A stretch of DNA of 64,000 nt from NCBI RefSeq assembly GCF_000972785.3, contig NZ_CP011253.3, positions 682,001 through 746,000 on the forward strand, given 5' to 3'. This DNA comes from Pandoraea oxalativorans (GTDB taxonomy: Bacteria; Pseudomonadota; Gammaproteobacteria; Burkholderiales; Burkholderiaceae). The notes under the pieces were generated by a model that was not told where the DNA came from, ran no database searches, and saw only the letters and a list, made by a program, of their open reading frames with translations. Numbering within the stretch: the stretch's first letter is position 1; every line of letters begins with the position of its first letter. Position numbers and translations under genes: made by a program. Positions 1 through 21,830 of the stretch are shown piece by piece.

Positions 1-695
1 TCGGTGGAGATCCACGCCATTTCGGCCGATTCTGCCAGCAACAGTTCGTAGTCCGCCTCGCTCGGCACGTCGTGCTGACGCGCAAACGCGCCCACGATCA
101 CCGGCAGCAGCGCCTGCGCGCTCTCAAGCGGCAGTGTGCCGTCGCGCTCCAGTTCCCACAACTGCCCGATGGCCGCTGGCGTCAGCGGGTCCTTCGAGGT
201 GCCGACGACGCGCGACACGGCTTGCTGGAACGTCTCCGAGAAACGCTCGGGGTGCAGTTCGCTCACGAAGAATTGCGAGATCTCGTCGGGGGCGTCTTCG
301 TGTGCGTAGGCGCGCCCCGTCATGCCGAGACGGTCCAGCGGATAGCGGCCGTTGAGCTTGAAACCGAGCGGACGCAGGATGCGCGTGAACGCCGCTTCGC
401 CCGGCGGCAGGGCGCCGTTCTGGTCCCAGCGCACGGTGCGCAGCGCGCCGTGATCGAAGTAGACCCCACCCCCGGCGGCAATCGCCTCCTCGGTGTAGGT
501 GCGCCCGTTTTGCGAGCGCGCGAGCAGCCCTTCGAACAGCGCCATATTCATGGCTTGCGCCAGTTCGGCGCGCGTGACGCGCCCCGGCTCGAAGTCGGCC
601 AGGATCGACGGCGAATTGAGCGTGGCGAAAAGCGCGTCGGTACGCGCCTCCCCGATCAGGGAAACCAGCAAGGACTGCACGTTGGCGTTGCGCAT
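1..695 (-). CDS. DUF1338 / 2-oxoadipate dioxygenase-decarboxylase-like protein (partial, 3' end off window)
   Basis: Translating the minus strand from ATG at 695 gives an open frame to the window edge, about 231 residues. It begins MRNANVQSLLVSLIGEAR, carries FDHGALRTV near residue 80 and reads MAWIST at the edge. The FDHGA(L/I)R motif holds the first metal-binding histidine of the DUF1338/YdcJ/HglS family (VOC-type fold). Characterised members convert 2-oxoadipate to 2-hydroxyglutarate in D-lysine catabolism. Family assignment is from recognised motifs; the exact substrate is inferred. The C-terminal half, with the remaining metal ligands, lies outside the window. The gene is divergent from the LysR gene at 866, which is a candidate regulator. 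The frame stays open a little upstream of 695 without a better start. Confidence 0.8.
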   Translation of the reverse strand, partial: MRNANVQSLLVSLIGEARTDALFATLNSPSILADFEPGRVTRAELAQAMNMALFEGLLARSQNGRTYTEEAIAAGGGVYFDHGALRTVRWDQNGALPPGEAAFTRILRPLGFKLNGRYPLDRLGMTGRAYAHEDAPDEISQFFVSELHPERFSETFQQAVSRVVGTSKDPLTPAAIGQLWELERDGTLPLESAQALLPVIVGAFARQHDVPSEADYELLLAESAEMAWIST

Positions 696-865
696 CAGGT
701 TGTCTCGCAGGGGGACGCCGTCTCGTGCGGCATCACAGGGTGAAGGTGTCAGGGCACGGCATGCGGCGCACCGTCATGCCTTCTTGCAGTGACTGCATTA
801 TTGGAACGGATGCGTCTCGCGTAAAGCGAGATAAAATTGCCACTTGATGCGTTTTTGGAATCAAC

Positions 866-1789
866 ATGCGCAAATTCAAGACGCCTGGCACGGCGGCGCT
901 GCTGGCGTTCGAGGCGGCCGCCCGGCACGAAAGCTTTACCCACGCGGCCCGCGAGCTGTTTCTGACCGAGAGCGCGGTGTCGCGTCAGATCGCCACGCTG
1001 GAGACGCAGTTGGGCGTGCGGCTGTTCGTACGCGCCAAGCAGCGCGTGGTGCTCACCCGCGCGGGACGGCTTTATGGCACGCAGGTGCGCCGTACGCTCG
1101 AACAACTGGATCGCGACACCCTGTCCATCATGGCCCACGGCAGCGGCGGCGGTTCGCTGGAATTGGCGGTGCTGCCGACGTTCGCGTCAGAGTGGTTGAT
1201 TCCGAGAATGAAGGACTTCGACGACCGGCATCCGGACGTTCGCGTGAACATGGGCGTTCACACCGACCTCTTCACGTTCGACGAGACGCACTTCGAGGCG
1301 GCGATTCACTTCGGGCAGCCGACGTGGCCGGGTACGTCGTCGGATTATCTGTTCGGGGAGGAAGTGGTGCCGGTATGCCGTCCGTCGATCCTGAAGGGAC
1401 CGGTGCGCACTGCGGCGGATTTGCTGACGTATCCGCTGTTGCACTCGACAACGCGTCCGAGCGCCTGGTCGCAGTGGTTTGCCGAGCAGCGCGTCGAGGA
1501 CCATCGGGCGTTGCAGGGCGTGCGCTACGAGCTTCACACCATGCTCATTGCGGGCGCGGCAGCAGGGTTGGGGATTGCGCTGGTGCCGAAGTTCTTCGTC
1601 GAAGGACAGTTGGCGACGCTCGGTCTCACGATTCCGTTCGACGTGAAGAGCGTGGCCGAGTCGGCCTACTACCTTGTCTACCCGACGGAACTGACACACG
1701 GGCAGCCACTCAGCGTTTTCCGCGAGTGGCTGCTCGATCAGGCGAAAGCGTATCGGCCGACGTACCGCCCGGACTATCGCCCCGCTTGA
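866..1789 (+). CDS. LysR-family transcriptional regulator (GcvA-like)
   Basis: 307 residues, the usual LysR length. The N-terminal winged HTH (about residues 9-68) contains FTHAARELFLTESAVSRQIA, followed by a LysR_substrate effector domain (about 95-300) with WLIPRMKDF and GIALVP. The RQIATLE...GVRLF arrangement is typical of the GcvA/AmpR subgroup. It is transcribed away from the DUF1338 gene starting at 695, with about 170 bp between them. The normal LysR arrangement of a regulator divergent from its target suggests control of that gene. The effector is unknown. Confidence 0.9.
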   Translation: MRKFKTPGTAALLAFEAAARHESFTHAARELFLTESAVSRQIATLETQLGVRLFVRAKQRVVLTRAGRLYGTQVRRTLEQLDRDTLSIMAHGSGGGSLELAVLPTFASEWLIPRMKDFDDRHPDVRVNMGVHTDLFTFDETHFEAAIHFGQPTWPGTSSDYLFGEEVVPVCRPSILKGPVRTAADLLTYPLLHSTTRPSAWSQWFAEQRVEDHRALQGVRYELHTMLIAGAAAGLGIALVPKFFVEGQLATLGLTIPFDVKSVAESAYYLVYPTELTHGQPLSVFREWLLDQAKAYRPTYRPDYRPA

Positions 1790-1845
1790 TGGCCATAAGT
1801 TGATGGCTAGACCCCACGTCCAGCCGGGATCGGGAAAAAGTTGAT

Positions 1846-2799
1846 TTAATCCAGCTGAATCTTGAGTTTGTCTTTGTAGATGCCCAGGCGCAACTCTGCT
1901 CGATCAATGAAATGACTATAAAAGAGCAATTCCGAATATAACTCCCCGTATCGTTTTCCAGTTTCCGGATCTTCGAGTGTTCCGGTGTGAAAGTAGCCTT
2001 TGGTGCTGGAGAATCGCTTCCACTCGGTTGGCATACGCGAGTGATTCAGCTTGTTTCCGATAAGGTAGCCGTAGAATTTTTTAATTCTGCCGTTGGATTT
2101 GGCTGCCAGTAATCGAGCATATTGTGTCAAGTCATTAATGTGATCTTGAATTTCAACGTCTGGGGCTTTGAATTCTATAATGATCGCAGCACCTTCCTGA
2201 TTGAAGAGGGCTATGTCGGGCCGTTTAGCACTATGTTCGGAGTTGTTTTCGGAAAATAGTGCTTCAAGGCTTGAATCGACATCTGACTCGAAGAGATTTT
2301 TGCCGTCTAGCCACTTCAAGGAATGTAATGGCTTGTCCGAGGCAATGTGTTCGAAATATTGATACTCCTCATTGAGGAGCCAGATGTCATGGTCTTTCGT
2401 GTCGGAGTTGTCTTTTCCCGTTGGGAAGAAGACGTTGTGAATAATACGCTCGTGGTCATTTCTCTTTCCATCGACGTGTTTCTGGCATTCTAATAGTTTT
2501 TCAACCGCATGCCGAAGAACCTCGATCATTGCTGTTCGACGGACAACCAATTGAGACAAGTTGGTCATATCCATCTTCTTGATAGTGCTTGTGTACTTCC
2601 ACGATAATTCGTTGACTTTGATGCGAAAATCGGGAGTTCTCGGGTCGAGCTTTAGCAGTTCGTCTTTAATTTTGAAGAGATTCGATGTGTCATCAACGAT
2701 GTCTTCCTGAAATCTTTTTAGAACGCGTTGAGCAATATTCTCTTCGGTGTCGCTGTACCGGATTTTGACGTTTGCTCCGGTAATGCCCCCGTTTTCCAC
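1846..2799 (-). pseudogene. C-terminal half of IS-split GHKL ATPase-nuclease gene (PD-(D/E)XK nuclease domain)
   Basis: A 317-codon frame. From residue 9 (GANVKIRYSD) onward it belongs to the gene continued at 3972-5181; the first eight codons come from the IS3 end. It contains RPDIALF (D195) followed by AIIIEFKAP (E209, K211), the D...ExK signature of PD-(D/E)XK nucleases. A helix with QYARLL follows, as is common in that fold. Codon usage is AT-rich compared with flanking genes, suggesting transfer. The IS end supplies an in-frame GTG at 2799, 16 bp past the orfB stop. A nuclease-only polypeptide could therefore be made by reinitiation, but that is speculative. No close named family is recognised for the region between the ATPase and the nuclease. 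Confidence 0.75.
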
Positions 2800-2817
2800 G
2801 GTCAGCAGAAGTAGAAA

Positions 2818-3618
2818 CTAAGCGACCATGGCAAGCCGCTGCTTCGGGGTAAAACCGCCCAATGCCATATTCGGGCGCTCGTGATTGTAAATCCACATCC
2901 AGTCGGCCGCCGCTTCGCGAACCTGCTCCAGGTCCTCCCACAGGTACTGCGACAGCCATTCGTATCGCGCAGTCCGGTTGAACCGTTCGATATACGCATT
3001 CTGCTGCGGCTTGCCCGGCTCGATGTATTCCAGCCGGATGCCTTGCTTCTGCGTCCATGTCACGATGGCCGCACTCAAATATTCCGGGCCGTTGTCGCAC
3101 CGGATGACCTTCGGCTTGCCTCGCCATTCCATATGCTGCTTCAGCGTGCGAATCACCCGCTCGGATGGCAACGAGAAATCCACCTCGATGCCCAGCGCCT
3201 CGCGGTTGAAATCATCAATCACGTTCAGCGTCCGGATACTGCGCCCGTCAACCAGTTGGTCATGCATGAAGTCCATCGACCACACTTCATTGATGGCCTC
3301 CGGTACCGATAGCGGCTGCGGCGTTTCGCGCACCAGCCGCTTTTTCGGCTTGATGCGCAGGTTCAGCTCCAGCTCCCGGTAAATCCGGTAAATGCGCTTG
3401 TGGTTCCAGCCGAATCCCTTCACATTACGCAGGTAGAAGTAGCACAGCAGAAAACCCCAGTTGCGATGGCAGCCCGTAATACGCAGTAGCCAGTCGGCAA
3501 TCTCTTCGTTCTCCGTGTTCAACTTCGCCGCGTACCGGTAGCACGACTCGCTGATGCCGAGCACCGCGCACGCCACACGAATTGACACGCGCCGCTGTTG
3601 CACAACTTGCTTTGCCAT
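2818..3618 (-). CDS. IS3-family transposase OrfB (DDE integrase catalytic domain)
   Basis: 266 residues from ATG at 3618 ([10 protein letters not shown]). An HTH_21-like N-terminal part is followed by an rve integrase core. Catalytic residues are visible as D in [11 protein letters not shown] in RCDNGPEYL and E in [10 protein letters not shown], the DDE triad. The active product is normally the OrfAB fusion. The orfB frame continues open upstream of its ATG to the A7G slippery run at 3645-3652, consistent with a -1 frameshift from orfA. It is transcribed with orfA at 3639-3905. Confidence 0.93.
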
Positions 3619-3638
3619 CTCGCGCCGACGAGATGGCT

Positions 3639-3905
3639 TCAGAACTTTTTTTGCAGGGCCTCCGAGGCAATCTCAGCCTTGAGCTTCTCCTCGATGCACA
3701 TCTTGCGAAGCCGGGTATTCTCCGCCTCCAGCTCCTTCATGCGCGACATCATCGACGCGTCCATGCCGCCGTACTTCGAGCGCCACTTATAAAACGTTGC
3801 CGAACTGATGCCCAGTTCTCGGCACAGCTCCGGCACCGCCAGCCCAGCCTCCGCGCGCTTGAGCGCCTCCAGTATCTGGCTGTCCGTGAATCTCGACTTC
3901 TTCAT
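3639..3905 (-). CDS. IS3-family transposase OrfA (HTH DNA-binding subunit)
   Basis: 88 residues starting [19 protein letters not shown], the typical HTH_Tnp_1 opening (Pfam transposase_8). An [15 protein letters not shown] recognition helix and a leucine-zipper-like [20 protein letters not shown] segment follow. It ends QKKF just past a run of seven A then G. A ribosome slipping -1 on A-AAA-AAG would bypass the stop and continue as [13 protein letters not shown] into OrfB. The upstream end of the IS is at 3971. Confidence 0.93.
3645..3652 (-). promoter_or_regulatory. Programmed -1 frameshift slippery site of IS3 element
   Basis: On the coding strand seven A residues are followed by G at the end of orfA (CAA AAA AAG TTC TGA). 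A -1 shift gives AAA GTT CTG AAG, which is the orfB frame and is open through the orfB ATG. This A6G-type heptamer is the usual IS3-family frameshift signal. Confidence 0.8.
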
Positions 3906-3966
3906 CTGCAGAACTCCCTCTTAACGAGAAAATTCTACTTCTCCTAGCGGTGGATTTCAGGGGGCA

Positions 3967-5181
3967 TTACCCTCCTTCGAGCATCTGCTGAGTGATGCCA
4001 AATTTCACCTCGGTGGCTCGGACCAAGGCGTCTCTGTCGAAGTCTTTGGGAGTAATAATCCCGTAGACATAATCTTCAAGAGAGTCAATCACATCGTCGA
4101 GCGAGAATTGTCCGTCTAGATCCTCGGTTGTACCGCACTCCGCAGGGATATCGAAACCGTCTCGCTGGAGATTTACCCGTTCCTCCAGGAGCGGGCTCTC
4201 CACCAGAATAAGTTCAAAATTGCCGTCAATCGGTTTGTGTCTATCTGAAGCTGATTTCAGGTATCGCTTCGTGAGTTGTTGCACGATGGCAGAGTTCGCG
4301 CAGAGGGCTACTTCGTGTTGAAAGCTCGGGAATTTGCTTGCTAGGAAACTGTAGCGAGTAATCTCCAACGTCGAGGTCGGTTGAGCGCCTTTGCCGTGCT
4401 CGCAAATCAGTGGTAGGGACAGCGTTTCCAGCGGAGTTGGGAGATCATTCCCGGCGATGGTGGCGGTCTCAGTTTTTCCTGAACACGTGGAAGCTATCTT
4501 GATCGTGAAATCACCGATCAAGCCTCTCAATACGATAAGGCGTTGGAGAAATGATGTGTACAGGTGGTCAGCAATGCCACCGCAAGAGAACGTGTCGGGA
4601 GTGGCTCCCCGTTCGGATCTCGCATCACCTATGCTTGCCGCGGTGCGTCGTCGTCGTAGGGTAACGGTCGTGTACAAATCGGCGCCCAACGCAGATTCCT
4701 CGGCAAACGACTCTCTAGATACTTCCCGGGTTGCACTTTCGATGTTGAGCGTCCTTCGACGAATGTCGTCCCCATGTCTAAAGACGCTATCAAGTGAGAG
4801 CCGCTCAAAATGATGGAAAAACTGGATGCGGCCCGCACCTTTGCATTTTCCAATTCCCTGAATCTTGAGGCGGTCCTTGTAAGTCGAGTCCTTCGTGATG
4901 AACGCTTTTACTTGCTCCTCTCCAAACCCCGCACCATTGTCGGTGCAGCAGATCTCCACATCAAAGCCATCGTCGAACAATGAGGTGCTGACGATCTCCA
5001 CCCGAATCTCCACCGAAAACGGTGGCGCTTCCTTTTCTGCGTTCTGGCGAATCAGATAGGAATCGATAGCGTTCGAGAGCATTTCTTCGAACACAATGTA
5101 GTCGCTAGTGTTGATTGCGGTGTTCTTAAGGCCGCCGTGGATATCGAGAGTCATTTTTCCGTCAGCATATGGTATTTGCAT
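3967..5181 (-). pseudogene. N-terminal half of IS-split GHKL ATPase-nuclease gene (GHKL ATPase domain)
   Basis: 404 residues from ATG at 5181 (MQIPYADGKMTLDIHGG); an alternative ATG at 5154 has a slightly better GACGGA ribosome site. The GHKL fold is clear: N-box VFEEMLSNAIDSYL (E33, N37), G1 motif CTDNGAGF (D81) and G2-like GIGKCKGAGRIQFF (about 109-122). These match the Hsp90/MutL/MORC type of ATP binding. The frame stops three bases into the IS end (LEGG then TAA). Joining at the duplicated CTCC gives LEGANVKIRY and continues into the fragment at 1846-2799 for 712 residues. The whole gene is AT-richer than its surroundings. A GHKL ATPase fused to a restriction-type nuclease suggests, by analogy with prokaryotic paraMORC proteins, a role in defence. 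No specific system is recognised. Confidence 0.8.
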
Positions 5182-5493
5182 GGATGGTACTGCATCACAA
5201 CAGGAGTGTGCGGACGTAGGACAGATGTTGGTTGGCACGACGGTGAGGGGCCATAGCCGCAAGACTTGGTCCGCATGCAGCTTTGATTATGAACGCCGCG
5301 GCCAAGCAGGCGTGTAAACGCCTGCGACCGAGGTTCCGCGAATAAGACTATTCGCAACGACGCGACGAGAAAAAAGCCGCTCATGACCGGTAGTTGCGGG
5401 CCGCTACAGTGGGGCCCAGACTTCCGTTCGCATTGCTGCTGTCTACAGTTTGATAGCGGCTTGGGCTTCGATATTGTTAAATGACGGGCGCGC
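5182..5493. other. Intergenic stretch upstream of the split GHKL gene
   Basis: About 310 bp with no convincing coding frame. It includes a perfect hairpin GCAGGCGT-GTAA-ACGCCTGC at 5306-5325 without an adjacent T run, so not a standard terminator. It presumably holds the promoter of the GHKL gene and the right edge of the AT-richer islet. No att site or tRNA is visible. Confidence 0.4.
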
Positions 5494-6141
5494 TCAGCGT
5501 CCCGTGTAACGTCCCGGCTTGTGCCACGCGACGACCATCGCGCTCATTGCGATGGCCGAGATGGCGGACCAGGCGACGCGTCCGGCCGGGATCGTGGCGA
5601 GCGACGCGATCAGAATCGTCGTGTCGATGCACACCTGCGTGATACCGGCATTGATGCCGCGCTTGCGTTGCAGCCACAGCGTGACGATGCCGGTGCCGCC
5701 CACGCCCGCTCCGTGCCGCGCCAGCGCCAGAATGCCCATGCCGCACAGCGTGCCGCCGACGAACGCGGCGAACAGCGGATTGACGAAGGCGATGTCGAAC
5801 GTTTGCGGCATGGCCGCGAGGGCGAAGGTAATGCCGAAGCTCGCGACCGTGGATTTGAGCGCAAAGCGCGCGCCCATCGTGAAGTACGCGAACAGGAAGA
5901 ACGGAATGTTCACCAGCGTAAAGATGGTGCCCACCGGCAGCGGAAAGACGTAAGAGGCGAGCAGTGCGATGCCAGCCACGCCGCCGGTAACCAACCCGGC
6001 AGCCTTGAGCAGCACCAGACCGACCACCACAAATGCCATGCCGATGACCATCGCATAGATGTCTTCGACCACGGAGTGCGGTACACCGATTGTGTCGGTT
6101 GCCGCAATGGCGCCGGATACAGCGCCCGTATCGTGTTTCAT
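5494..6141 (-). CDS. YitT-family membrane protein
   Basis: 215 residues with about five or six hydrophobic segments, for example AMVIGMAFVVVGLVLLKAAG, VAGIALLASYVFPLPVG and FVGGTLCGMGILALARHG. The LVTGGVAGIALL and GGTGIV motifs fit the YitT_membrane (DUF161) family. Members of this length lack the C-terminal DUF2179 domain of longer YitT proteins. It is a predicted inner-membrane protein; the biochemical role of the family is unknown. It lies 147 bp downstream of ilvE on the same strand and may share its transcript. Confidence 0.85.
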   Translation of the reverse strand: MKHDTGAVSGAIAATDTIGVPHSVVEDIYAMVIGMAFVVVGLVLLKAAGLVTGGVAGIALLASYVFPLPVGTIFTLVNIPFFLFAYFTMGARFALKSTVASFGITFALAAMPQTFDIAFVNPLFAAFVGGTLCGMGILALARHGAGVGGTGIVTLWLQRKRGINAGITQVCIDTTILIASLATIPAGRVAWSAISAIAMSAMVVAWHKPGRYTGR

Positions 6142-6288
6142 GATCAGTAAGTCAGGAACGACAAGACGGCGTGCCCGGCTCTCCTGATGCCGGAACGCGC
6201 CGCCGAAGATTTCCCGCGTCGCTGTCTCGGGCGACGCGCAGCTTCACAGCTTGTTATGTAGTTACCGTGTAACGGTGTTAACGCGCGA

Positions 6289-7386
6289 TTACGCGACGTG
6301 GTGGACCCACTGGAACGGATCGGCCACCTTGCCACGTTGAATGCCCGTGAGCTGATCGCGGATACGCTTGGTGACCGGGCCTTCGCCGCCGTCGGCGATG
6401 TTGAATTCGCCGTTGGCGTGACGCACCTGACCGATGGCCGTCACCACCGCCGCCGTGCCGCACGCAAACGTTTCCTTCACACGGCCGCTGGCTGCATCCG
6501 CCTGCCACTGTGCGAACTCGTACGGTGTCTCATTGACCGTCAGGCCTTCGCGGCGTGCCAGTTCGATGATCGACGCACGGGTGATGCCCGGCAGGATCGT
6601 GCCCGAGAGCGGCGGCGTCTGGAGCGAGCCGTCGTCCATCACGAAGAAGACGTTCATGCCGCCGAGTTCTTCGATCCAGCGATGTTGTGCGGCGTCGAGG
6701 AACACGACCTGATCGCAGCCCTTGGCGCTCGCTTCGGTTTGCGCAATCAGGCTGGCGGCGTAGTTGCCGCCGCACTTCGCTGCACCGGTACCGCCGGGTG
6801 CTGCGCGCGTGTACTGGTCCGAGACCCACACCGTCACCGCCGATTTGCCGGGCTTGAAATACGGGCCGACCGGGCAGGCGATCACGCAGAAGATGTATTC
6901 ATGCGCGGCGCGCACGCCCAGGAAGCTTTCCGAGGCGAACATGAACGGACGGATGTAGAGGCTGCTGCCTTCGGAGCCCGGGATCCATGCACGGTCGATG
7001 TCGACCAGCTTTTCCACGGCTTCGAGGAAGACGGCTTCCGGCAGATCGGCCATCGACATGCGCTGGGCCGACTCGCGAAAACGCTTGGCGTTGGCTTGCG
7101 GGCGGAACAGCGAAATCTTGCCGTCTTCACCGCGATAAGCCTTCATGCCTTCGAAGATTTCCTGCGCGTAGTGCAGCACGGCGCACGCCGGATCGATCTG
7201 GAACGGGCGGCGGGCTTCCACCTTTGCGTCATGCCAGCCGCGACCTTCGGTCCAGCGGATCGTGACCATGTGATCCGTGAATACGCGGCCGAATACCGGG
7301 TTCGCCAGTGCGGCGGTGATCTGGTCGGCGGGGGTGGGGTTGGCGTGCGGCTCCACGACAAAACGCAGTTGGTTATCGGCGCTCAT
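6289..7386 (-). CDS. ilvE: Branched-chain amino acid aminotransferase
   Basis: 365 residues, class IV PLP aminotransferase of the longer (BCAT group II) type. It catalyses reversible transamination between 2-oxoglutarate/glutamate and the oxo acids of valine, leucine and isoleucine in the cytosol. Visible motifs are YAQEIFEGMKAYRG (about 74-86), the PLP-lysine region GGTGAAKCGGNYAASL (Lys204) and MNVFFV...TPPLSGTILPGITRASI. The start MSADNQLRF at 7386 has only a weak GAAG ribosome site. The upstream region is long (390 bp), so it is likely the promoter-proximal gene of an ilvE-yitT unit. Confidence 0.95.
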   Translation of the reverse strand: MSADNQLRFVVEPHANPTPADQITAALANPVFGRVFTDHMVTIRWTEGRGWHDAKVEARRPFQIDPACAVLHYAQEIFEGMKAYRGEDGKISLFRPQANAKRFRESAQRMSMADLPEAVFLEAVEKLVDIDRAWIPGSEGSSLYIRPFMFASESFLGVRAAHEYIFCVIACPVGPYFKPGKSAVTVWVSDQYTRAAPGGTGAAKCGGNYAASLIAQTEASAKGCDQVVFLDAAQHRWIEELGGMNVFFVMDDGSLQTPPLSGTILPGITRASIIELARREGLTVNETPYEFAQWQADAASGRVKETFACGTAAVVTAIGQVRHANGEFNIADGGEGPVTKRIRDQLTGIQRGKVADPFQWVHHVA

Positions 7387-7776
7387 GTTTCTTCAAATGT
7401 CTCGGCAGAGGTGGCTTCAGTCGTCAGTGCCGTTAACGTAAACGGCAAGGTGCGTATTTTCCTCCTTTCGGGGCCTGCCTGTCGACTGAATTCACCGCTT
7501 CTCCCGTCACGATGGGCTTCTGGGGGATATGGCGCTGAAAAATATCGGAATTTGCGCGATTTTTGCAAGAAAAGTGCGTAATTTGCCGAAGGTCGCGTCG
7601 ACGTACGTCTGCCATGAAACCGATGCGGCGCAGGGTAACAGTGTGTAAAAAATCATTTCAGGTCGCGGGTCTGCCGACACTCGACATTTAATATCTAAGG
7701 CGCATGATGTCGGGAACGTCCTCGCAGGCGATGCGCGGACGTTCCGCCCGTAGATCAAGAGTGGGAGAGGAGACGG
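7387..7776. other. Intergenic region between divergent ilvE and small membrane-protein gene
   Basis: About 390 bp without a convincing gene. It contains an inverted repeat GCCGTT-N6-AACGGC at 7429-7446, about 45 bp upstream of ilvE, a possible protein-binding site. It also has AT-rich patches near 7540-7580 and 7645-7700 that may hold promoters for the two divergent genes. No leader peptide, T-box or riboswitch was recognised. Confidence 0.4.
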
Positions 7777-18080: not shown

Positions 18081-20579
18081 TCAATCCCCTAGCCGATCCA
18101 GCATCGTCTTCGTCACGCGTTGCTGCGACGCCTTATCGTAATCTGCCCACGGGTCTTCTTTCAGTGCGGTGAGGCGGTCTAGAGCGTTGCGCACGGTCCA
18201 GGCGTCGGCACCGGGCAAATCGGACAATTCCTCCCAATGGACCGGCACCGATACCGCCATGCCTTCTCTCGCCCGGGCCGAGTAGGCGCATACGGTCGTC
18301 GCCCCCCGGTAGTTGCGCAGATAGTCGATGAAACACTTCCCTACGCGATGCTTCGGTCCCATCGTCGCCGTGAACCGGTCGGGAAACACGCGCGCCATAT
18401 GCTTGGCAATGGCTTCTGCGAACGCCTTCGCGAAGTCCCATTCGTGACGCCTCGCCAAGGGGGTCACCACGTGCAGCCCCTTGCCGCCGCTCGTCTTCAC
18501 GAAAGCCGTCAGCCCCAATTCGTCCAGTAGCCCCCGAATGAGCTGCGCGCCTTCCACAATCTGCGCAAACGTCACCCCCTTGCCGGGGTCCAGATCGAAG
18601 ATCACGCGATCGGGACGCTCGATCAGATCGCTGCGCGCATTCCACGTGTGGAACTCCACCGACCCCATCTGCACGGCCCCGACGAGTGCGCGCGTATCGT
18701 CGATCTGCATCAGCGGTTCGTGGTCCGGATCGAGCGACGGGTCGAGCATGCGTACGCCGGTGATCGTCTTCGCTGCATGCTTCTGGAAGAACATCTCGCC
18801 GCCGATACCTTCCGGCGCACGCAGCACAGCCACCGGTCGGTCGGCGAGGTGCGGGAGCATCCATTGGCTGACGGCGTCGTAATACTCGGCGAGCTCGACC
18901 TTCGTCACGCCCGAGTGCGTGTCCATTACGCGTTCGCCGTGTGTGATCTTCACTGGAAGCGCGGATGATTGCGGCATGGGCGGTTTCTCCTTCGATGAGT
19001 TGACGGCACCGCTGCGGCGCGTCTCGCGGCGAATCTCCTTCGCCGGTTTGTCGGTGCGCATCGCGTGGAACGAGGCCTGACGCACATGGCCGTCGCGCGT
19101 CCACTCGGCGAAGCGGATTTCTGCGACCAGCGTCGGGCGCACCCAGTGCACACGCGCCTGCCCCCCCGGGCGCGGCGCAGGGGACAGTGCAGGGCGGGGC
19201 GTCTCAATCGCGTCGAGTTGCTTGCGCATGCGCAGCAACGCCTTGGCGTCGAAGCCAGTGCCGACCTTGCCCGCGTAGCGCAACGTCTTGCCGTCATCGT
19301 CGAAATAACCGAGCAGCAACGCGCCGAATCCCTGTCGCGAGCCGGCGGGTTCCGTGAACCCCAATACGACGAACTCCTGACGCTGCGAGCACTTGAGCTT
19401 GCGCCATGCGTCGCTGCGACCGTCGACATAGGTCGAGTCGTCGCGCTTGACGATGATGCCTTCGAGGCCCGCTTCGCACGCGCCGTGCCAGAGCGATCCG
19501 AGATCGCCTGCGACAGGTTGGAGCACGCGCACGGCATCCGTCTCTTTGCCTTCGAACATGCTTGATAGCCTTGCTTGTCGCTCGTGCAACGGCGCCTCGC
19601 GCAAATCCTCGCCGTTACACCATGGCAGATCGAAGACGTAGATGACGATGGCGCTCTGGGCGTCTTCGTCGAACGCACGTTGCAACGCCTGAAAGTCCGG
19701 TAACCCATGCTCGTTGGCGACGACCGCCTCGCCATCAAGCCACGCGTTGGGGAGACCGCGCTCACGCAAGGCGGTCACGGCGGGTTGGAAGCGGCGCGTC
19801 CAATCTTGCCCGGAGCGTGTGAAGACGCGAATGTCGTTGCCCGCAATGCGGATGAGGACGCGATATCCGTCGAGCTTCAACTCGGCGTGCCAGCCTTCGG
19901 ACGACGGTGCCTGATCGACGAGTGTCGCCAGCATCGGACGCATCTCGTCGGGTGGTTTCGTCGACGATCTGCGTGTCGTCGCAGGTTTCGACGTCGGCGG
20001 CTCGGTATGCGGTAATGCATGCCCGTCGTCATGCCGGTGAATCAACAACCATTGCGGTTGGCGCGCGGGTTTGTCGGTGCGCACCAACGTCCAGTGTCCG
20101 TTGAGTCGTTCGCCTTGTAATGTGAACGACAACTTGCCGTTCGCGTAATCGCGCGATGCGTTGCCGTCGGGTATCCAGATGCCTCGATCCCAGATGTCGA
20201 CGTGCCCCGCACCGTAGTTGCCTGCGGGAATGTCGCCTTCGAAGTCGGCGTAAGCGAGCGGATGGTCTTCGACCTGAACCGCCAGTCGCGGACGGCTGAC
20301 ATCCGGACTCGGTTGCTTCGGCAGCGCCCATGAACGCAGGGTGCCGTCGAGTTCCAGACGGAAGTCGTAATGGAGATGGCTGGCGTCATGCCGTTGGATG
20401 ACATACCGCAGCGCATGCTGGCGGGATGCACGCTTACCGCGCGGCTCTGGCGTCGCAGAGAAGTTGCGTTTCGCATCGTACGCCGCGAGTGGATCGGCGG
20501 ATGTGCGACGGCGACCCGGTTTCGCACTCGTCGCTTTGGTCGGCTTGTCTGAGGCGCGTCTTGGCATCGTCGCGCTCAC
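18081..20579 (-). CDS. ligD: Multifunctional non-homologous end-joining DNA ligase LigD
   Basis: 832 residues from GTG at 20579, overlapping the ku stop. Domains in order are a 3'-phosphoesterase (about 50-185, with RHDASHLHYDFRLELDG and EDHPLAYADFEG), an ATP-dependent ligase (about 213-500, nucleotidyl-lysine K235 in AELKLDGYR) and an archaeo-eukaryotic primase-type polymerase (about 545-825, acidic pair in IFDLDPGKG). It processes and seals Ku-bound double-strand breaks. PE-LIG-POL order is the usual arrangement in pseudomonads and Burkholderiales. The linker about 185-212 is basic and probably flexible. It is translationally coupled to ku. Confidence 0.97.
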   Translation of the reverse strand: MSATMPRRASDKPTKATSAKPGRRRTSADPLAAYDAKRNFSATPEPRGKRASRQHALRYVIQRHDASHLHYDFRLELDGTLRSWALPKQPSPDVSRPRLAVQVEDHPLAYADFEGDIPAGNYGAGHVDIWDRGIWIPDGNASRDYANGKLSFTLQGERLNGHWTLVRTDKPARQPQWLLIHRHDDGHALPHTEPPTSKPATTRRSSTKPPDEMRPMLATLVDQAPSSEGWHAELKLDGYRVLIRIAGNDIRVFTRSGQDWTRRFQPAVTALRERGLPNAWLDGEAVVANEHGLPDFQALQRAFDEDAQSAIVIYVFDLPWCNGEDLREAPLHERQARLSSMFEGKETDAVRVLQPVAGDLGSLWHGACEAGLEGIIVKRDDSTYVDGRSDAWRKLKCSQRQEFVVLGFTEPAGSRQGFGALLLGYFDDDGKTLRYAGKVGTGFDAKALLRMRKQLDAIETPRPALSPAPRPGGQARVHWVRPTLVAEIRFAEWTRDGHVRQASFHAMRTDKPAKEIRRETRRSGAVNSSKEKPPMPQSSALPVKITHGERVMDTHSGVTKVELAEYYDAVSQWMLPHLADRPVAVLRAPEGIGGEMFFQKHAAKTITGVRMLDPSLDPDHEPLMQIDDTRALVGAVQMGSVEFHTWNARSDLIERPDRVIFDLDPGKGVTFAQIVEGAQLIRGLLDELGLTAFVKTSGGKGLHVVTPLARRHEWDFAKAFAEAIAKHMARVFPDRFTATMGPKHRVGKCFIDYLRNYRGATTVCAYSARAREGMAVSVPVHWEELSDLPGADAWTVRNALDRLTALKEDPWADYDKASQQRVTKTMLDRLGD

Positions 20580-21553
20580 TTGGTTCTGGTGGATTTAGTC
20601 GACTTGGCGCGCTTGACCGATGCCTTCTTGGCCGCCGTCTTCTTAGTCGTCTTGCTGTCCGACGCTTTCGTCGACGATTTTTCCGAACTACGCGCCTTCA
20701 CAGGCTTCGCCTCGACGTCCTGCGCATCGACGGTCCCGGCATCGCGCTCGCCCTTCGTCCCGAGGCTCTGCTTGAGTAGCGCCATCAAATCGGTGACGCT
20801 GCCGCCGCTCGCCAGCTTCGGGGCGCTCGCTTCGATCTGTGCGACCTCGCGTGTCTGACCGGACGCGATCTTGCGGTCGATGAGCGCCTTGAGGTCGTCC
20901 TGAAACGTGTCGTGATAATCGCCGGGATGCCACGGCCCGGACATCTCGTCGATCAGCCGGATCGCCATGTCCAGTTCGCGCTCGCCGGGCGCGGCGAGTT
21001 TCTGCAACTTCTCCTTCGTCAACCCGACCTCGGCCGGATCGCGCATCTCGTCCTGCCATCTGAGGGTGTCGAGTACGAGCGCGTCGCCCGCTGGCGCGAG
21101 CACGGCGAGATGCGCGCGCGTGTGCATCACCACGCGCGCGATGCCCAGCTTGCCCGCCTTGATGAGCGCCGCGTGCAGCAGCGCGTAGGCCTTTGCGCCG
21201 CCACGCTCGGGCACGAGGTAGTAAGGCGTATCGAGATACATGAACGAGACGTCCGTGGCATCGACGAACGCCAGAATGTCGACGGTCTGCGTCGCCGTCG
21301 GATTGGCCGAGCGGATCTCGTCGTCGCTGAGCACGACATAGTTGCCTTTCTCGTACTCGTAGCCGTGCACGATCTGGTCGCGCGGCACTTCTTTGCCGTT
21401 CTCCTTGTTCACGCGCTTGTAGCCGACCGGCGACATGGTGCGCTTGTCGAGCCAGTCCAGATCGAGCTTGTGTGTCGTCGAGGCAGGAAACAGGGTGACG
21501 GGTACGTTGACCAGTCCGAAGCTGATGGCGCCCTTCCAGATTGCGCGAGCCAT
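20576..21553 (-). CDS. ku: Ku protein for non-homologous end joining
   Basis: 325 residues from ATG at 21553 (MARAIWKGAISFGLVNVPV), the conserved bacterial Ku opening. The Ku core (about 1-255) contains LDWLDKRTMSPVGYKRVNKE and VPERGGAKAYALL. The extreme C terminus is a Lys/Ser/Thr-rich tail, as seen in Ku proteins that bind DNA non-specifically and recruit LigD. Its TGA stop overlaps the ligD GTG (GTGA), so translation is coupled. Ku homodimers bind broken DNA ends in the nucleoid. Confidence 0.97.
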   Translation of the reverse strand: MARAIWKGAISFGLVNVPVTLFPASTTHKLDLDWLDKRTMSPVGYKRVNKENGKEVPRDQIVHGYEYEKGNYVVLSDDEIRSANPTATQTVDILAFVDATDVSFMYLDTPYYLVPERGGAKAYALLHAALIKAGKLGIARVVMHTRAHLAVLAPAGDALVLDTLRWQDEMRDPAEVGLTKEKLQKLAAPGERELDMAIRLIDEMSGPWHPGDYHDTFQDDLKALIDRKIASGQTREVAQIEASAPKLASGGSVTDLMALLKQSLGTKGERDAGTVDAQDVEAKPVKARSSEKSSTKASDSKTTKKTAAKKASVKRAKSTKSTRTK

Positions 21554-21830
21554 AGATGCTCCCAATGCTGTGACCGAATGTGGGGTTCCGGGAGTGCACG
21601 AAGCAGAGCAGCGCCGAACGTGCAGGAAATCCCGTATAGGCATCACCCGCGCGCTTGCATGCCGCATGGCCGCCCTATTACGTTGCGATTCATCCCGAGG
21701 CGTGCCGGTTCCCCTGCATTGATTTTCTCAATGCCGATGGCCATGTCATAAGGATTCCTTGATGAAACAAAGCGGCAAGACGCTCATCCCATTGGAATCG
21801 ATGCGTGACATCAGCAAGGGGAGATAGGCA

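Follow-up and report, generated by a model that had tools for sequence, protein, structure and literature searches.

Within a 64,000-nucleotide stretch of the Pandoraea oxalativorans genome (contig NZ_CP011253.3, positions 682,001 to 746,000; hereafter the window), an insertion sequence (IS) of the IS3 family lies between two open reading frames (ORFs) in the region 1846-5181. The locus raises the questions of whether the two ORFs are halves of a single gene, what this gene encoded, and whether its interruption is lasting or, as had been proposed in the original prediction made for this DNA, reversible. Our reading, to which we assign a probability of about 0.75, is that an acquired gene for a GHKL-S5 ATPase-nuclease was split by the IS3-family element and is very probably inactive, and that the loss would be effectively permanent.

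Two fragments of one gene

The IS occupies positions 2779-3971 on the minus strand. It is 1,193 bp long, and its outer inverted repeats are perfect over 12 bp, with 12 of the 12 outermost bases complementary. The element is bordered by a duplication of the target tetranucleotide CTCC (left copy 2775-2778, right copy 3972-3975); short target duplications of the IS3 family comprise 3-5 bp. To the right of the IS lies the N-terminal fragment (3976-5154, minus strand; 393 codons, MTLDI...MLE), which comprises a GHKL ATPase and an S5/transducer domain. The C-terminal fragment (1846-2775, minus strand; 309 codons and a stop), to the left, comprises a helical linker and a PD-(D/E)XK nuclease domain. 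The position of the IS, the CTCC duplication and the two open fragments all agree with the original prediction.

Each fragment was given its own row in an alignment that also contained 22 intact relatives. The two lay end to end in 22/22 cases, one column apart, this column being the junction Gly. At the breakpoint, P0002 and P0003, which are the nearest relatives, read MLEGANIKIHY. The N-terminal fragment was 50-70% identical to the 22 relatives and the C-terminal fragment 64-87%, and the N-terminal identity was likewise the lower one when six relatives were compared pairwise. The identities of the two fragments correlate across the 22 relatives (Spearman 0.89), and P0002 is the nearest relative of both. 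The claim that one gene has been cleanly split is therefore well founded: the uninterrupted form exists in relatives, and an origin of the fragments from different proteins is ruled out, since the same relatives are matched by both and the identities are correlated.

The 702 codons of the two fragments contain no internal stop. The intact length was previously given as 712 codons, counted from an upstream ATG at 5181. We arrive at 703 codons, because all 22 relatives start at the column of Met 5154; this figure is coordinate arithmetic (393 + 1 + 309), with no join made, and P0002-P0005, the closest four of the homologues listed, have this same length. At E <= 1e-3 the N-terminal ORF matches 483 homologues, of which 120 were listed: 109 with lengths of 691-707 aa, the strain's own 395-aa product (P0001, 100%) and 10 of other lengths. 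A search for a second copy of the gene in the same genome found none.

Domain architecture of the intact protein

Pfam HATPase_c matched the N-terminal fragment weakly, under the cut-off (9.2e-4). Of the residues in the GHKL ATP-binding motifs, E24 (5085-5083, minus strand), N28 (5073-5071), N73, G74, G76 and most of G100-R109 are invariant in 30 rows, with D72 and the remainder nearly so. The S5/transducer domain follows the GHKL domain, as in paraMORC3-type proteins, and fold comparison of the ATPase module gave matches to MutL and MORC.

In the nuclease half, HSDR_N was identified over the cut-off (5.2e-7). The residues E136, D187 (2217-2215, minus strand), E201 (2175-2173) and K203 (2169-2167), in fragment numbering, form an E-D-ExK set that is invariant in 28/28 rows. 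Fold matches of this half include nuclease folds; Foldseek gave no match at E <= 0.001. Among the top VIA matches, 5eqz and 9k85 span just the helices 21-95 and 9k86, a designed protein, spans 21-225. The sequence search against solved structures gave no convincing match. PADLOC returned a single weak match of the C-terminal fragment, to Cas4 (E 0.041). DUF4263, the Pfam signature of Shedu, was not matched at E <= 1 in three intact relatives or at E <= 0.1 in the window fragment. As part of the account favoured above, the intact protein is best explained as a PD-(D/E)XK nuclease joined to an N-terminal GHKL-S5 ATPase. Its architecture is of the paraMORC3 type, and it would work most like GHKL-Shedu proteins such as VcSduA.

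Acquisition of the gene

The split gene is located in a segment (1793-5482) between two convergent genes, lysR for a GcvA-like LysR regulator (866-1789, plus strand) and yitT for a YitT-family membrane protein (5494-6141, minus strand). Of 31 congeners, 27 have a LysR match at E <= 1e-100; the LysR encoded here is 96% identical to that of P. communis and at most 79% identical to those in the named members of other genera listed. In a blastn comparison of window positions 1-7500 with the 27 congener loci, the matches stop at 1758-1792 and restart at 5482-5498 in 26/27. Since the left and right matches in these 26 loci overlap or sit no more than 144 bp apart, 1793-5482 is an extra segment, not found at the same place in the congeners. 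The exception is L050, with a LysR of 73% identity and nothing matched downstream.

An ancestral Pandoraea gene at this site is accordingly ruled out, as it is missing in 26/27 congener loci compared. The earlier statement that the host gene was intact until the insertion stands in so far as the gene is intact in relatives and its frame is undamaged here, but the word host misleads. Similarly, the description of the fragments as AT-rich is valid only in a relative sense: the G+C content is 44% in 1793-2778 and 52% in 3972-5482, versus 64-65% in the neighbouring genes.

Elsewhere in the 31 congeners, only two weak N-terminal matches were found (E 1.7e-10 and 2.8e-4). Distant GHKL-like ORFs are present at other sites in two congeners, L021 (G027) and L022 (G019). 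Their open frames of 689 and 733 aa are 32% and 38% identical to the present protein in part of the ATPase and show, by eye, an ExK-type motif near the C-terminus. The wider superfamily is therefore polymorphic within the genus. The upstream 323 bp of the segment had no full-length match in the congeners; in two congeners, short stretches 33 and 35 bp long (86-88%; E 2.3e-4 and 4.4e-4) matched window positions 5348-5382 (positions 189-223 of these 323 bp). Phage cargo was rejected, as no phage record matched. With regard to plasmid cargo, 19 plasmid records match, four of them full-length at 42-45% identity and the other 15 at 19-24%.

Distribution of the family and probable role

A profile of the intact family, applied to 398 genomes of the bacterial family that includes Pandoraea, retrieved this gene and one other at E <= 1e-60 (2/398). 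Clustering of the neighbours of 46 loci, with crude ORF calling, revealed no conserved operon partner. The neighbour family seen most often, whose scanned members are integrases according to Pfam, is present at 7/46 loci and lies within 300 bp upstream in four. The domain scan, for which eight short or decayed loci had been set aside in advance, covered 91 of the 172 neighbours within the limits of length and distance; phage-integrase domains were present in 5/91 and ResIII in 3/91. Five of 10 neighbours, hand-picked for likely matches and with no random-gene control, matched PADLOC at E <= 1e-20. These are GajA (L092), type III restriction (L063), type I restriction (L080), RT UG5-nitrilase (L061) and, at L064, a UvrD-type helicase that scored with both RTasHel and GajB. 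The presence of such defence-type genes beside relatives is suggestive.

Several relatives appear, by eye, to be solitary among ordinary genes. Decayed or incomplete relatives were also observed: L083 (residues 1-601), L088 (1-378) and L096 (79-137), the last being a short remnant near an ORF that by eye resembles a transposase. One relative is divided between contigs (L072/L090).

A different role for the intact enzyme, that of a MutL-type factor of DNA repair or genome maintenance, would suit the MutL and MORC fold matches, the seemingly solitary relatives and the view of Iyer et al. (PMC2292703), in the part of that paper drawn on here, that standalone paraMORC3 members may have non-restriction roles. 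We nevertheless consider this role unlikely. The sporadic distribution of the family, the location of the gene in an acquired segment and the integrase domains in the neighbourhood all speak against it, as does the report that VcSduA of Vibrio cholerae, a tested GHKL-nuclease protein, is anti-phage (PMC12137116). The role of the intact gene was probably anti-phage. By analogy with VcSduA, invading DNA would be sensed or clamped by the ATPase module, which would thereby license the nuclease to cut.

The insertion sequence and its copies

The IS contains two ORFs on the minus strand, orfA (3639-3905; 88 aa) and orfB (2818-3618; 266 aa from the first ATG). OrfB scores 226.5 bits with NCBIfam transpos_IS3 (cut-off 160), which places the element in the IS3 family; OrfA alone scores 47.4 bits, under a cut-off that is set for the full transposase. 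The domains rve, the integrase core in OrfB, and HTH_Tnp_1 in OrfA both exceed the Pfam cut-offs. The end of orfA contains an A7G run with an overlapping -1 frame, which may be suited to -1 frameshifting that would yield OrfAB.

The genome, assembled in five contigs, carries at least 14 full-length copies of this IS, in addition to an interrupted copy and one that spans the two ends of contig C3; these numbers are lower bounds, as 40 of 65 candidates were scored. The same length of 1,193 bp and identical ends in 15 full-length copies confirm the ends of the IS independently. Twelve of the 15 are flanked by perfect 4-bp duplications. The three without matching flanks are L003, L005 and L007, as expected if recombination between copies or rearrangement had occurred. 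The other 14 full-length copies differ from the window copy by 1 to 3 bases. IS matches at E <= 1e-100 were found in 8/31 congeners, with no more than two in each, at most 13 candidates being scored per genome.

Contig C3 is cut within an IS copy (L016/L017) with matching CAGG flanks; it is probably a circular plasmid, because its two ends together complete this one copy. The interrupted 16th copy (L015 and L018, C1:3640537-3643081) consists of query positions 96-1193 and 1-103, which overlap by 8 bases and are separated by about 1.34 kb; a second element producing an 8-bp duplication would leave such an arrangement.

The ends and frames of the window copy are present, in line with the original view that it is intact, but with a qualification. 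Codon 70 of its orfA (3698-3696, changed base 3697) is TGC (Cys). All 14 remaining full-length copies of the genome, and the three congener copies read, have TAC (Tyr) instead; a fourth congener copy, L104, is unreadable there.

Consequences of the insertion

The N-terminal frame is extended by the native Gly and a single foreign residue, and a stop follows within the IS after this one codon; the resulting product of 395 aa has no nuclease. The nuclease half is left without its own start and without the ATPase. The gene is therefore very probably inactive. The insertion also looks recent, as formerly suggested, because the IS copies are near-identical and the fragment codons are free of stops.

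The proposed history is as follows. A Pandoraea lineage would have gained the single gene for the 703-aa protein between lysR and yitT. An IS3-family element that had multiplied in the genome in recent times then inserted, with a 4-bp duplication, between the ATPase/transducer and the linker-nuclease modules. The loss of function would be effectively permanent unless excision activity is demonstrated. Such an insertion is an ordinary kind of event, here in a little-studied enzyme family. A probable defence gene would have been taken up as lone cargo between two core genes and lost during IS expansion, and such turnover by gain and loss is what costly defence genes are expected to show.

Copy-out/paste-in transposition keeps the donor element in place. 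This is the mode by which IS911, also of the IS3 family, is described to move (PMC8944449), and precise excision is described as rare in bacteria (PMC9397093). Both points weaken the idea of a phase-variation-like switch, in which the IS would excise precisely at a useful rate and the population would mix cells with and without a working enzyme. The perfect duplication and the otherwise undamaged reading frame would permit such reversion, and excision of IS600, an IS3-family element, mediated by the IS excision enhancer (IEE) restores lacZ in Escherichia coli, with IEE homologues reported from many species (PMC9397093). However, no excised site was seen in the one assembly available, and the private Cys70 in OrfA counts further against excision, though transposase could come from other copies. 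Reversion thus found no support, and we regard it as very improbable.

It is just as hard to credit that the halves still work, with the ATPase of 395 aa and a nuclease half initiated at GTG 2797-2799 being made separately and reassembling. The break does fall where the helical linker follows the modelled ATPase/S5 module. In addition, OrfB is in frame with the C-terminal fragment, TAG 2818-2820 being the sole stop between them, and the GTG is in the same frame 18 nt past the orfB stop. Yet no ribosome-binding site is recognisable by eye ahead of this GTG. No promoter-like site reads out of the IS end; the three such sites in all (versus 1.9 +/- 1.4 in shuffles) include a lone one on the minus strand, at 3960-3932, ahead of orfA. 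The covalent coupling of ATPase and nuclease is also lost. The nuclease half might be made by reinitiation, with no positive support. A broader notion is that these proteins of about 700 residues form a GHKL-Shedu-like, so far unlabelled branch of defence nucleases encoded by single genes, and that in this lineage IS3 switches the enzyme on and off through rare precise excision or two separate halves. It has very little to recommend it.

The intact family is well conserved, occurs in many proteobacteria and was not recognised by the defence and family libraries tried; it is therefore a cheap, testable candidate.

At a distance from this locus, window positions 18081-20579 encode LigD (3'-phosphoesterase, ligase and primase-polymerase), and the adjoining ORF (20576-21667) may encode Ku.

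Comparison with known systems

To our knowledge, the N-terminal part of the Shedu SduA nucleases (PDB 8ti9, 8ps5) is not a GHKL ATPase, and sequence profiles gave no connection between these and the present family. Among the titles and abstract openings listed in literature searches, none concerned this locus. With respect to the insertion, IEE-dependent excision of IS600 from lacZ in E. coli likewise involves an IS3-family element interrupting a coding gene (PMC9397093); the excision enhancer is known in that case, whereas none was sought in this genome.

The paraMORC3 proteins, as outlined in PMC2292703, share with the present family the GHKL and S5 domains and a C-terminal domain of the restriction-endonuclease fold with E-D-ExK residues. 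They too are sporadic, laterally mobile and prevalent in proteobacteria. The likeness is one of architecture alone.

The GHKL-Shedu protein VcSduA, according to the portion of PMC12137116 used here, is likewise a single protein with an N-terminal GHKL ATPase and a C-terminal PD-(D/E)XK nuclease. The catalytic Glu is residue 27 in VcSduA and 24 here, and the catalytic Lys is residue 557 versus 597. DUF4263 is present in VcSduA but was unreported by Pfam in the three relatives and the window fragment. A sporadic distribution is common to both. Unlike VcSduA, the present gene is broken by an IS.
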